Shown here piece after piece: positions 47,283-52,641 of a DNA stretch of 64,000 nucleotides (its first letter is position 1; every line of letters starts with the position of its first letter). A program made the translations under genes and the position numbers. The notes below the pieces were generated by a model. It was not told the origin of the DNA and did no database searches. It saw nothing but the letters and a program-made list of their open reading frames with translations. Origin of the DNA: Bacillota bacterium (GTDB taxonomy: Bacteria; Bacillota; Clostridia; Peptostreptococcales; Anaerovoracaceae). The stretch lies in NCBI GenBank assembly GCA_017416795.1, contig JAFQBD010000019.1, forward strand, positions 1-64,000. Reading direction: 5' to 3'.

Positions 47283-48158
47283 TCAATAAAAACCAACACC
47301 ACCTAAAGGTAGAGTCTCAAAAACCACCAGCCCCACTTCAGGTCTGTTATTTATCCTCCACGGGAACAAACTGTTTCCTATGCCCCTGCTTACTACCATC
47401 TGTGTGTTTTCCTTTTCATATATCCCTTCGTAATACTCAGGAAATAGTCCTTCACCGGGAGAGATCACTCCACCTATAAAAGGAAGCTTTATCTGTCCTC
47501 CGTGTGCATGCCCCGTGAGGACCAGATCAGCTGTGCTTTGCACATAGGTATCCATCAGCTCCGGCCTGTGCGATAGCAAGACAGTATATCCGTCGCTGCT
47601 CTCCAGTAGTCCGGTAAGCGACTTCTCCATTACCATATACGGTTCTTCCGTCTTCGGGTCCATCGTAAACATTGGATCATCAACACCTGCGATAGTAATG
47701 TGCTCCCCATCCTTTTCAAGCCGCATTTTCTTATTATCAAGGATAGTTACACCTGCTTCATACATGGATTCCTTCAGCTTGCTATATTCCTCTATCCTCT
47801 GTTCGTGATTTCCGGTCACATAATAGCAAGGAGCTATCTTCACAACTTCTTCGATAAAATCAACAGCCACGTCGACATCAGTCCTGCGAGAATCTATCAA
47901 ATCGCCTGTTATGGCGATGATGTCCGGCTCGGCTTTTTCTATCAGCTCAAGCAGCTTCTCATTATCTTCACCCATTTCAGTATTGTGAAGATCCGAAAGG
48001 TGGATCATCCTGAAGCCATCAAATGACTTAGGTAAAGCATCTGATTCTATCCTGTATGTATTCAGTTCCAAAGCTTTATTACACCACGTTCCATATATTA
48101 TGAACACGGCAGCCAAAACTGCTAAAATCACTATGATCATTCTGATTCTCTTCCTCAC
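47283..48158 (-). CDS. Membrane-anchored metallophosphatase (YkuE-like)
   Basis: 291 residues with an N-terminal membrane segment (about 5-24) and a calcineurin-type domain: MIHLSDLHNTEMG near 52, IITGDLID-like IIAITGDLIDSR near 80, YYVTGNHEQR near 112, LLSHRPE near 195 and LTGHAHGGQIKLP near 213. All metal ligands are present. The YkuE family acts on the cell surface; substrate unknown. Its start overlaps the AAA ATPase stop by four bases (ATGA type). Confidence 0.88.
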   Translation of the reverse strand: MRKRIRMIIVILAVLAAVFIIYGTWCNKALELNTYRIESDALPKSFDGFRMIHLSDLHNTEMGEDNEKLLELIEKAEPDIIAITGDLIDSRRTDVDVAVDFIEEVVKIAPCYYVTGNHEQRIEEYSKLKESMYEAGVTILDNKKMRLEKDGEHITIAGVDDPMFTMDPKTEEPYMVMEKSLTGLLESSDGYTVLLSHRPELMDTYVQSTADLVLTGHAHGGQIKLPFIGGVISPGEGLFPEYYEGIYEKENTQMVVSRGIGNSLFPWRINNRPEVGLVVFETLPLGGVGFY

Positions 48159-48856
48159 AACAATCTCCCCAAAATCTGTTTCCTGTCTTCTATGAACATC
48201 TTCGTGATCTGATAACTGCCCGTTTCCTCATATTCACAACTGTGTATCTTTCCGTCGTCAAACGACAGTATCTCCGCTCCCGGGATCCCAAGCAAAATCG
48301 GTGAATGAGTCGCTATTATAAATTGTGCCCCTTCTTTGGCACACTCGTATATTTCCAGTAAAAGAGTCAGCTGTCTCTGAGGCGAAAGTGCTGCTTCCGG
48401 CTCGTCAAGGATAAATACCCCGTCACCTCTCATCTGATCCTGCACCAGTGCCAGAAAGCTCTCGCCGTGAGACTTCTTATGATATTCCCGAGATATATCG
48501 GCATATTCTTCTTCCTTAGTCGCAACATTATAGAAGCTTTCCGCCCTCAAAAAATATCCGCTCCAAGCCCTCCTGTAACCTCTCACCAGTCTTATCGCTT
48601 CATGCAGTTCCGAGTGAGAATCATAAGTCGAGAAATTATAATTCTTCGTTCCGCCTTCAGGATTGAATCCGTAAGCTACAGCTATCGCCTCCAGAAGCGT
48701 CGACTTGCCGCTTCCGTTTTCTCCCGTAAAGATCGTGATCGGCTTGCAAAGCTGCAGGCTTTGCATATTCTTAAGGACTTCTATTCGTCTTAGGTAACTG
48801 TCTTTAGAAATCTCGTCCCAATCTATCGATATGCTTTGTATGAATAAGTCGTTCAT
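48155..48856 (-). CDS. AAA/ABC-type ATPase of chromosomal unknown role
   Basis: 233 residues. Walker A is IFTGENGSGKSTLLEAIAVA near residue 43, Walker B is GVFILDEPEAALSPQRQ near 148, with FIIATHSPILL near 180. It is like the single-domain AAA_21/RecF-type ATPases rather than a transporter subunit; no permease is adjacent. Function unknown. It is coupled to the metallophosphatase gene. Confidence 0.8.
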   Translation of the reverse strand: MNDLFIQSISIDWDEISKDSYLRRIEVLKNMQSLQLCKPITIFTGENGSGKSTLLEAIAVAYGFNPEGGTKNYNFSTYDSHSELHEAIRLVRGYRRAWSGYFLRAESFYNVATKEEEYADISREYHKKSHGESFLALVQDQMRGDGVFILDEPEAALSPQRQLTLLLEIYECAKEGAQFIIATHSPILLGIPGAEILSFDDGKIHSCEYEETGSYQITKMFIEDRKQILGRLL

Positions 48857-48955: not shown

Positions 48956-48985
48956 AAAAAAGCAACACCTATATAGATGTTGCTT
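48956..48985 (-). terminator. Terminator of the glycogen operon
   Basis: Stem AGCAACACCT / AGATGTTGCT with one mismatch, and TTTTTT after it on the minus strand. It is the first terminator after the GH13-GH77 gene and lies beyond the 11-bp repeat array, so the array would be in the 3' untranslated region. Confidence 0.8.
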
Positions 48986-49005
48986 CAAACTGTTCAGAAA
49001 GGTTG

Positions 49006-49220
49006 TTTCAGCTAAACGTCAAAATTCATAGCAATTTAGCTGAAATTCCCCAACCACATATATATTGTGTGGTAAGAGTATAGTCTTCATTTCAGCTAAA
49101 TTATATTTATGCATCTGTTTTAGCTGAAATCTGTATAAAAACCATATTTTTTCTAGCCTATGTAATTCATTTCTAAAAATATTTCAGCTAAATTACTATC
49201 AAAACAAGTTTTAGCTGAAA
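49006..49220. repeat. Array of six TTTCAGCTAAA motifs in three inverted pairs
   Basis: Forward copies at 49006-49016, 49090-49100 and 49182-49192; reverse copies (TTTAGCTGAAA) at 49035-49045, 49119-49129 and 49210-49220. All six are exact. Within a pair the starts are 29, 29 and 28 bases apart, with loops of 18, 18 and 17 bases of unrelated sequence. Between the pairs are 44 and 52 bases. A separate ACCACATA/TGTGTGGT hairpin lies at 49053-49073. It could be protein-binding sites or three RNA stem-loops in the 3' region of the glycogen operon. I did not see the full 11-mer elsewhere in the window. Confidence 0.9.
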
Positions 49221-49236
49221 AATAGTTTCCGCAGCC

Positions 49237-52200
49237 CTACCTCTCATGTTTCTCAACAAGCTTTCTCATCTTCTCGCAAAGCTCAGCGCTCGCCCATCCT
49301 TCAGGTGCTCGCCACTGCCAGTTTCCTTCGGCTAGTCCCGGAATATTCATGCGGCTTTCGTCGTCCAGACCTAAAATATCCTGAAGAGGCAGTATCACCC
49401 ATGGTGATCTCGAATTGTACAGTTCTTCAATGATTTGATCCGAAGTTTCTGTGATATCATTTTCCTCTATCCAGCCAACCAGCGTCTGGTTATCGTGTGT
49501 ACCGGAATAGAGGATCTTAGTCGCTGCTTTATCGTCATCCAATGCCGCTATCTCATCTGCTGAAAACTGATATACCAGCATTCCCGGACAGCCGGTCAAC
49601 TTGAGCAGGTCGTGTACTTGATTATCAAGCGTTCCCAGATCTTCAGCTAGGAAAGGCATACGACCAAGTCGTGCTTCAAGGAAGTCAAAGAATTCCTTTC
49701 CTACTCCCGGAAGCCACCATCCATCACGAGGCTTACCTCCACGCGGGATAGCGAAGAATGCCGCAAAGCTTCTGAAGTGATCCAGTCTGATATAGTCATA
49801 TTGTTCCATCGCTCTTTCGACTCGCTTCAGCCACCATTCGTAATCACTGGCCTTAAGTGATGCCCAGTCATAAAGCGGGTTGCCCCAGTGCTGGCCGTCT
49901 TCACTGAAGTAGTCAGGCGGTACACCGGCACCAACTAACGGATATCCGTCTTCACCCAGCAGGAACACGTCTCTGTGCGCCCAGGTATCTGCACTGTCGA
50001 CAGCTGCATATATAGGTATATCGCCTATCACTGAAACGCTTTTGCTGTTAGCGTAGGCCTTGACTTCCTTCCACCTGCGATCAAATATGAACTGGTTTTT
50101 CTTGATGACTTCAAGCTCGTCTTTTCTGCCGAGTCTCCACTTATCCAGATCCTTTCTGTTGCGTTCAGCTTCCGGCCACTGCTGCCAAGGTTTGCCGCCA
50201 AGACTCCTCTTTATCAATGTGTAAAGCGCATAGTCTTCCAGCCAGTAGCTTTCTCTTTCGCAAAAGCGCTCGTACTCATCCTTATCTATGTATTCTGCCG
50301 CTGCAGTTCTTCCTGCCAGCTTGCTGTTTCCTGCAAATACTGCAGGGCTTGAATAAGGAGAGTCTGTATCTTCGTCAGCAGGACTTAGCGGCAATATCTG
50401 CCACAATTTCTGTCCCATCGATGCCAGATCATCAATGAATCCTTCTGCGCCGTCAAGACTTCCCGACGGCAGTGATGATACATGACAAAGCACGCCTGCA
50501 CTGCGTTCCATCTGAAGCCGCTGTAGTTTCTGCTTGCTGCAGTAATAGAGTTTAGTTGATACAGGCGGCAATTCGACATTGATGTTGTGTCGCAATGTCT
50601 CTACAGTATCTACTGCTTCATCTTTCCAAAGTTCGATTTCTTCTGCATCCAGAAGTTCCAGCACATACTCAGTTCCTTCAGGGAATTTGACTTCAGCTGT
50701 TACAGAGCCGAATATATGTCGGTTAGCAACCATGATCATGGATCCATCGTCCCAAAATCTCTCACATATGAATATATGCTCCCCTTGGGCTTCAAATCTA
50801 TATGCACCTTCTGTCAGTACAGGATACTGTTTTCTAATCTGTGCCAGCATCCTATAATGAGCCATCAGTTCTTCATCTTCCCTGCCCCACGGATATGTAG
50901 CTCTGTTATATGGATCTTCATATCCCTGTACGCCTGCTTCATCACCATAGTACAAGCACGGTACACCCGGCAGTACATACTGGATCAGTGATAGGACTTT
51001 CATCCTGTTTTTTGCGAGCCACATCTTATCATCAGGGATACGATAGTTTTTCTTATCTTCTTCATTCAGTATCGCATCATCATTTCTTGTTCCGGGCGCA
51101 TCGCTCAGTATAGTCAGCGTCCTTGCTCTGTCATGGCTTCCTATCAAGTTCAAAGCGCCATAGAAATTCTCAGGCGGATAATTTTCTGCCAGGCTGTTCA
51201 ATCGTCTCACTGCAGCCTGTGCATCGCTTCTGCCCAGCATATAATCCATCAAAAGGTCACGAACCGGATAGTTCATAGTTGAATCCAGTTCATCGCCCAT
51301 GAAGTAACGACGCTGTACATCATAGCTCACCTTATTGCTGGCATCTTCCCAAACTTCTCCCATGAGAAGACCCTCAGGATCTGCATCCTTGACAGTCTTC
51401 CTGATGCCTGCAATGAAATCATCAGGAAGTTCGTCTGCCACATCGAGTCTCCAGCCTGAAGCGCCGGCACGCAGCCATTTTGCGACTACGTTGTCGTTCT
51501 CGCCACTGCTGATCCCATAACATCCTTCCGCATCATCGTGCTGATCCCCACCATATATAAATTCTCTATAAGACGGTTCATTTTCTTCAACATTCGGCAG
51601 GTCACCTACGCCCCACCAGCAGTCATATTTATCCGGAAATTCCTCGAATCGATACCACTTATAATAAGGCGATTCCGGTCCTGCACAGGCACCGAGTCTT
51701 CTCGGATCTTCACCGTCGGCATCGCCATAATTACCAAACTGATCAAAATATTTGCTGTCTGCTCCCGTATGATTGAATACACCGTCGAGGATCACTCTTA
51801 TCCCCAGCTTACGAGCATCATCGCATAACGCCTTGAAATCCTCTTCAGTCCCGAATCCGGGATCTATCATCATATAATCAGCCGTATCATACTTATGATT
51901 ACTCGATGCCAGGAAAACAGGGTTAAGGTATATCGCACCCGCACCCATGCTCTTGATATAAAACAGTTTTTCTCTTATCCCCTGCAAAGTCCCGCCGAAG
52001 AACGGCCAGTGAGTCACCTCGCCTTTTTCATTTTTAACATAATACGGCAGCCCATACCAATCCTCTTCGACTACGCGCTGTGTACCTTTCCAGGTCGGCT
52101 CGCCAGCAGGATCTTCAGCACTGCCTGCGTTCTCGCGTCTGAATTCATCTACAGCCTGCTGCTTTTCTCGCCAGTTTTCATCTCGGGCGAATCTGTCGGG

Positions 52201-52641
52201 AAATATCTGATAAACGATGGCGTCCTTGTACCACTTCGGAACAGGCGCATCCTTATATACCGTTATCTGAAACGCCGGCGGCTCATATCCATACAGCTGT
52301 CCCTCGCCGCCAAGCCTTTCTTCGTTATTGCCGTAATAGAATTTCCTGTCGCTTGTCGTATCGCTGCCGTCGCCGTCCTCCAGAATGAAGTAATACCAGC
52401 AAAGGTCCGCCTCCTCGGAAGGTGTCAGCGATACGCGAAAAAGACAGGCGTCTCCTTCTATGGTCTTTTCCATAGGGATAAGCCTGCCGCCTTTTGTCGT
52501 CTGCCAAAGGTGCACTTTGCAGGACAGGCACTCAAACCTGCCTTTTGCCTTGATGCAAAGGCTCACTTTCTCGCCTGTCTTAAGTGCGCCTGTCGGCTTT
52601 CTGTATCGGATGTCCTGTGAATCATGATAACATCTGATCAT
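49237..52641 (-). CDS. Fusion of GH13 alpha-amylase-type and GH77 4-alpha-glucanotransferase
   Basis: 1134 residues. Residues 1-130 are a beta-rich N-terminal domain. The GH13 barrel follows with DGVFNHTG, GWRLDVADELP (nucleophile Asp), MGEVWEDAS (acid Glu) and LIGSHDRARTL; it is closest by eye to neopullulanase/cyclomaltodextrinase enzymes. From about 709 a GH77 (MalQ) domain starts SAGVLCHVSSLPSG and has DYIRLDHFRS (nucleophile), FLAEDLG (acid/base) and YSGTHDNQTLVGW. Both catalytic sets look intact. It is the last gene of the glycogen operon, 14 bases after glgA, and would trim and rearrange glucan chains. Confidence 0.92.
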   Translation of the reverse strand: MIRCYHDSQDIRYRKPTGALKTGEKVSLCIKAKGRFECLSCKVHLWQTTKGGRLIPMEKTIEGDACLFRVSLTPSEEADLCWYYFILEDGDGSDTTSDRKFYYGNNEERLGGEGQLYGYEPPAFQITVYKDAPVPKWYKDAIVYQIFPDRFARDENWREKQQAVDEFRRENAGSAEDPAGEPTWKGTQRVVEEDWYGLPYYVKNEKGEVTHWPFFGGTLQGIREKLFYIKSMGAGAIYLNPVFLASSNHKYDTADYMMIDPGFGTEEDFKALCDDARKLGIRVILDGVFNHTGADSKYFDQFGNYGDADGEDPRRLGACAGPESPYYKWYRFEEFPDKYDCWWGVGDLPNVEENEPSYREFIYGGDQHDDAEGCYGISSGENDNVVAKWLRAGASGWRLDVADELPDDFIAGIRKTVKDADPEGLLMGEVWEDASNKVSYDVQRRYFMGDELDSTMNYPVRDLLMDYMLGRSDAQAAVRRLNSLAENYPPENFYGALNLIGSHDRARTLTILSDAPGTRNDDAILNEEDKKNYRIPDDKMWLAKNRMKVLSLIQYVLPGVPCLYYGDEAGVQGYEDPYNRATYPWGREDEELMAHYRMLAQIRKQYPVLTEGAYRFEAQGEHIFICERFWDDGSMIMVANRHIFGSVTAEVKFPEGTEYVLELLDAEEIELWKDEAVDTVETLRHNINVELPPVSTKLYYCSKQKLQRLQMERSAGVLCHVSSLPSGSLDGAEGFIDDLASMGQKLWQILPLSPADEDTDSPYSSPAVFAGNSKLAGRTAAAEYIDKDEYERFCERESYWLEDYALYTLIKRSLGGKPWQQWPEAERNRKDLDKWRLGRKDELEVIKKNQFIFDRRWKEVKAYANSKSVSVIGDIPIYAAVDSADTWAHRDVFLLGEDGYPLVGAGVPPDYFSEDGQHWGNPLYDWASLKASDYEWWLKRVERAMEQYDYIRLDHFRSFAAFFAIPRGGKPRDGWWLPGVGKEFFDFLEARLGRMPFLAEDLGTLDNQVHDLLKLTGCPGMLVYQFSADEIAALDDDKAATKILYSGTHDNQTLVGWIEENDITETSDQIIEELYNSRSPWVILPLQDILGLDDESRMNIPGLAEGNWQWRAPEGWASAELCEKMRKLVEKHER

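Follow-up and report, generated by a model that had tools for sequence, protein, structure and literature searches.

REPIN/BIME repeats go with REP-associated tyrosine transposases (RAYTs) (PMC2817692, PMC3116915). The arrays described here are like that system in their short half-sites of alternating orientation and their intergenic, dispersed placement (PMC2817692, PMC3116915), and also in their intergenic inverted doublets, whose spacer varies, in the link between a dedicated gene and repeats of its own, with a motif specific to gene and genome, and in that different genes with their repeats may share one genome. They differ in the partner protein, which appears PD-(D/E)XK-like (a Pfam search with three linked proteins found no Y1/HUH tyrosine-transposase domain), in half-sites that are not REP palindromes, in dyads that are helix-phased over 73-125 bp, in showing little or no compensatory change, and in numbering tens of sites rather than hundreds.

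MITEs are miniature non-autonomous elements; like them, our arrays are short and non-coding, have inverted ends and occur as copies at unrelated loci, with an empty site in a relative, but they lack a consistent target-site duplication, contain several internal dyads better conserved than the rest, and could be matched with no autonomous transposon. The res sites of the Tn3 family are phased dyads bound by resolvase dimers, and share with the arrays the three dyads of inverted half-sites and a spacing that tolerates whole-turn changes; our half-sites are much further apart, however, no resolvase gene is linked, and solo copies are dispersed. Operator and centromere clusters of the ParB/KorB type present dyads to a sequence-specific dimer, and likewise form clusters at several chromosomal places, but with another half-site geometry; here no ParB-like protein is linked and a close sister genome has no arrays. 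Direct repeats of constant length with constant-length spacers, as in CRISPR, are absent, and the preliminary description of the locus rightly set CRISPR aside, the array consisting of alternating inverted 11-mers and not of a tandem repeat.

We read the six repeats treated below as a solitary copy of a dispersed, non-coding intergenic element, hitherto unnamed, REPIN/RAYT-like and served by a cognate PD-(D/E)XK-type protein that, we infer, binds and mobilises it; we put the probability of this reading at about two in three. No paper on phased arrays or on this partner protein family was found among open-access papers; in broad terms the pairing of a dispersed repeat with a cognate protein has a known analogue.

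The window array and its setting

The window, that is, the whole stretch of 64,000 nucleotides analysed (part of genome G000), holds exact copies of TTTCAGCTAAA at 49006-49016 (+), 49035-49045 (-), 49090-49100 (+), 49119-49129 (-), 49182-49192 (+) and 49210-49220 (-), and no seventh. These positions and their grouping into three inverted pairs are those already given in the preliminary description, which had also noted the 28-29 bp spacing and the unrelated loops: start-to-start distances within the pairs are 29, 29 and 28 bp, and each pair has the geometry 11 bp, 17-18 bp, 11 bp, with loops unrelated to one another. Its judgement that the copies exceed chance was borne out, with eight copies at up to one mismatch in the window vs. 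1.9 expected from shuffles. The features are as follows.

49006..49045, no strand: dyad 1; TTTCAGCTAAA, 18-bp loop, TTTAGCTGAAA
49090..49129, no strand: dyad 2; TTTCAGCTAAA, 18-bp loop, TTTAGCTGAAA; centre 84.0 bp (8.0 turns) from dyad 1
49182..49220, no strand: dyad 3; TTTCAGCTAAA, 17-bp loop, TTTAGCTGAAA; centre 91.5 bp (8.8 turns) from dyad 2
49226..49232, - strand: outer flank GCGGAAA, 5 nt beyond the outer arm
48994..49000, + strand: opposite outer flank TCAGAAA, 5 nt beyond the outer arm; forms an imperfect terminal inverted repeat with GCGGAAA
48987..49236, no strand: segment missing in sister genome G073 (boundaries approximate)
48959..48986, - strand: intrinsic terminator of the glycogen operon (context, outside the element); kept beside the G073 empty site
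49237..52641, - strand: fused amylase/4-alpha-glucanotransferase gene of the glycogen cluster (context); its end adjoins the array
48155..48856, - strand: AAA_21-type ATPase gene (context), on the other side of the array, which is upstream of it

The array thus follows the stop of the glycogen cluster's last gene, precedes the terminator of that operon and lies upstream of the ATPase gene, a placement described earlier with which the ORF and terminator coordinates agree. By eye only, most of the outer ends in the four G000 arrays carry GCGGAAA or a close variant at that same 5-nt distance. The genome-wide count that the preliminary description had suggested gave 20 exact TTTCAGCTAAA copies in G000 vs. 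2 for the reversed pattern; beyond the four intergenic arrays the copies are singles.

Helix-phased arrays within the genus

With mismatches allowed, G000 has four arrays (C7, C10, which is the window array, C12 and C15), every one with three pairs. Arrays with a changed motif occur in three genomes of the same genus, the change from TTTCAGCTAAA being at the eighth base plus an extension: G068 has TTTCAGCCAAA (six arrays mapped), G006 has TTTCAGCGGAA (four four-pair arrays and one pair at a contig end) and G063 has TTTCAGCGG. The eighth base shifts together at nearly all sites of a genome, which implies a trans-acting recogniser. G068 has arrays at positions corresponding to those of at least three G000 arrays (after purD, upstream of the ORF MDNARYNL and upstream of the ORF MISNK); spacers and loops of these counterparts are little alike, and several of their spacings differ by whole turns. 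Most of the genomes compared are metagenome assemblies. Beyond the genus, family-wide and order-wide pattern searches returned isolated matches only, with no array recognised, and the eight matches of a viral scan were likewise isolated and formed no array. The element measures ~215-290 bp and holds three or four dyads, each an inverted half-site pair of 39-42 bp whose middle 17-20 bp are weakly constrained.

Spacings between pair centres correspond to whole helical turns, at about 73, 83, 94, 105, 115 or 125 bp (measured 72.5-74, 82-84, 91.5-94, 104.5 and 124.5). For 36 spacings the coherence was 0.937 at 10.45 bp, a value reached by none of 20,000 nulls. These nulls treat spacings as independent while some arrays are homologous, and we therefore tested separate genomes and motifs apart. 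The TTTCGACGT arrays, found by prediction (below), gave a coherence of 0.958 at phase 0 over 42 spacings (0 of 100,000 nulls), with period and phase fixed beforehand; arrays of other paralogues were also phased (P = 3.5e-5), as were the TTTCTGCGAA arrays of G065 (P = 3e-6), and the TTGCAGAT arrays of G065 showed weak phasing at 10.45 bp (P 0.047; best period 10.27). With whole turns between them, successive dyads all face the same side of the DNA, an arrangement that suggests proteins bound along one face of the duplex rather than RNA hairpins. Of the two functions proposed in the preliminary description, the binding-site array gains from this phasing, from the genome-specific motif change and from the conservation of arms in diverging arrays.

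The candidate partner gene and predictions from its arrays

Directly downstream of the C15 array of G000, outside the window, lies the candidate partner gene (L062:533-1360; G000:C15:533-1360), and a gene of this family also directly follows an array in G068 (C26) and G063 (C70). The C15 protein, of roughly 275 aa (250-300 aa in the family), is most closely related to a G068 protein (57% identity), and the G063 homologue is 49% identical over the C-terminal part. We regard it as a putative nuclease with a PD-(D/E)XK-like C-terminus on the grounds of residues conserved in most of 40 members, namely VRSKSE (E), PDF and WEHxG, with H or Y where K is usual, and of a weak PHROGs endonuclease match (E 0.0019). 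The three linked proteins had no Pfam match up to E = 5, and a PDB sequence search with the partner protein gave one insignificant match. A search for viral relatives of the protein found none; plasmid and phage searches yielded mostly partial, domain-level matches, together with one distant near-full-length phage match (25% identity). Plasmid records H1-H6, from unrelated bacteria, carry the C-terminal WEHxG domain alone in proteins annotated as AAA-family ATPases or a RecQ-type helicase.

Homologues of the gene come with arrays of their own half-sites. Those of G030 and G066 have a four-dyad array of TTTCGACGT spaced 73, 94/95 and 73/74; the gene-linked arrays of G065 C6 and G026 C32 use TTTCTGCGAA and TTTCACCG; and arrays of more distant paralogues use TTATACA, TTGTTAA, TTGCAGA and TATGGTT. 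Motifs of the closest homologues have TTTC then NNC in common, and distant homologues differ. Many paralogues have no array; those with none detectable upstream include G000 C5, C9 and C25 and G068 C67, C102, C144, C172, C182 and C207. The family reaches up to ten matches in one genome (G065).

Motifs taken from gene-linked arrays predicted arrays elsewhere. TTTCGACGT, read from the gene-linked array alone and then sought in 49 genus genomes, had 51 sites in G030 and 22 in G066 (73 in total) and none in the other 47; nearly all mapped arrays of these two genomes have four dyads spaced 73-(84, 94 or 105)-73. In 773 kb of G065, TTTCTGCGAA marked two phased arrays besides the gene-linked one, and TTGCAGAT, the motif of a second G065 paralogue, had sites at six other loci, each with 0 control matches. 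The G072 C82 motif recurred at a second locus as two dyads 74 bp apart. In the TTTCGACGT, TTTCTGCGAA and TTGCAGAT searches the repeat family thus followed the presence of the particular linked gene; G006 has arrays, and no full-length subfamily gene was found in its fragmented assembly.

The product of the gene directly downstream of one array per genome would be the likely binder, since the array beside a gene homologue has the motif found throughout that genome. A dimer may occupy each dyad, and several dimers on one face would then cooperate in forming a nucleoprotein complex that is bent or wrapped. The nuclease-like protein may drive or maintain the dispersal of arrays, by copying or recombination, much as a RAYT does for REPINs; loss of gene and arrays together, as in G073, would end the system. 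One candidate partner, a tyrosine recombinase beside the C7 array (L060:6209-7051), was set aside when a motif link emerged for the C15 gene family. This recombinase gene and a PDDEXK_2 (Rpn-type) gene (L060:7152-7985) lie 0.85-2.6 kb downstream of the G000 C7 array, and a gene resembling the latter by eye (MGIEMKKDEIKIKKEITREPLTSDIIFKAVYG...; L250:3849-4757) is found 139 bp away from the G030 C54 array.

We lean somewhat towards the wider proposition that these are a new class of dispersed element, in which helix-phased dyad arrays are copied by or for diversified PD-(D/E)XK-type proteins, each with its own half-site code and several families to a genome, and in which co-evolution of protein and motif makes the arrays species-specific. 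If so, the pairing of dispersed repeats with a dedicated, co-evolving protein would have at least two origins in bacteria, one involving tyrosine transposases and the other a nuclease-fold protein whose system relies on a helically phased code in duplex DNA. The family would then offer a natural series of protein/half-site pairs for the study of changing DNA recognition and a test case for intergenic repeat spread with no obvious transposon, and would account for intergenic arrays of one genus that look meaningless in any single genome.

Copying, probable loss and rival explanations

Within one genome, arrays from unrelated loci show homology to each other, and the longest alignments between them stop at the outer arms (G030 C6/C70, 297 bp; G066 C140/C143, 296 bp; G006 C147/C83, 322 bp). 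The arrays therefore behave as discrete copied units bounded by their outer arms, with terminal inverted repeats. The G026 gene lies between two direct 172-bp copies that are 98.8% identical, the other genes having an upstream array only, and internal duplication of dyad pairs has enlarged some arrays (L256). Between orthologous arrays of G030 and G066, arms are 95.7% identical, the remaining array sequence 75.2% and the flanks 83.2%, a comparison somewhat favouring the arms, as these were located by the motif itself. By eye, the flanks of 16 arrays had no consistent target-site duplication, and a clean empty site sought between G030 and G066 gave rearranged flanks instead.

An empty site was found in the sister genome G073, which is 92-96% identical at aligned loci. 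This metagenome-assembled genome (MAG) has none of the C7, C12 and window arrays, and a DNA search of it gave no match to the partner gene; at the window-array site (L025) the gene stop TAG is followed by CTA and then by the AAGCAGC of the terminator. For C7 and C12 loss in G073 is likelier than repeated gain, because the more distant G068 shares array positions with G000; at the window-array counterpart G068 has a run of N at exactly that place (L026:4393-4492), and the call of loss vs. gain is thus confined to C7 and C12. A G073 with neither gene nor arrays is what we would expect of an element that is gained and lost. The preliminary description had taken loss of the pairs in close relatives as a sign against the motif; G073 does lack the array by the pattern used, and the array is nonetheless real.

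The same arrays could be the operators of a lineage-specific global regulator, one protein controlling both their neighbours and its own promoter, with dispersal incidental. Where measured, own-gene arrays precede the start codon by ~120-130 bp, in several cases with promoter-like sequence (by eye) between array and gene, the arms are under purifying selection, and repressors typically use phased sites with DNA looping. We nonetheless consider this unlikely, as neighbouring genes share no common theme, several arrays lie between convergent genes (G068 C223, G030 C70 and G030 C78), which argues against a general promoter function, and the arrays are homologous copies bounded by outer arms. Rather less probable is a role as chromosome-structuring, segregation or self-recognition sites, where the protein would cluster distant arrays or read self marks and its nuclease domain would act elsewhere: the 4-14 intergenic arrays per genome without promoter bias, the nuclease-like domain and the many diversified paralogues would suit it, but the entire set is absent from sister G073, and motif and number vary greatly between congeners, unlike in an essential chromosomal system.

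The other function raised in the preliminary description, three stem-loops acting in RNA, here at the 3' end of the glycogen operon transcript for stability or for an RNA-binding protein, we consider very improbable. The 11-bp arms can pair and fold well (-9.7 to -11.2 kcal/mol), and the array lies in the transcribed 3' region, before the terminator; G030 even has a weak excess of matching within pairs (P about 0.004), with G066 marginal. RNA pairing does not explain the 10.45-bp phasing between pairs, however, and in G000, G068 and G006 within-pair covariation is absent, arms matching their partners no better than the arms of other pairs. Arrays also occur in diverse transcriptional contexts, and an Rfam search near the window array gave two sub-threshold matches only, none near threshold.

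Three further loci bear mention. In G030 C28 (L249) a gene for a secreted protein (MKKRRLL...) seems to have been tandemly duplicated together with its downstream array. Single strong dyad-like inverted pairs outside any array occur at L067:1501-1540 (G016 C89) and L170:1501-1541 (G151 C9), and the G016 pair extends into a longer hairpin.
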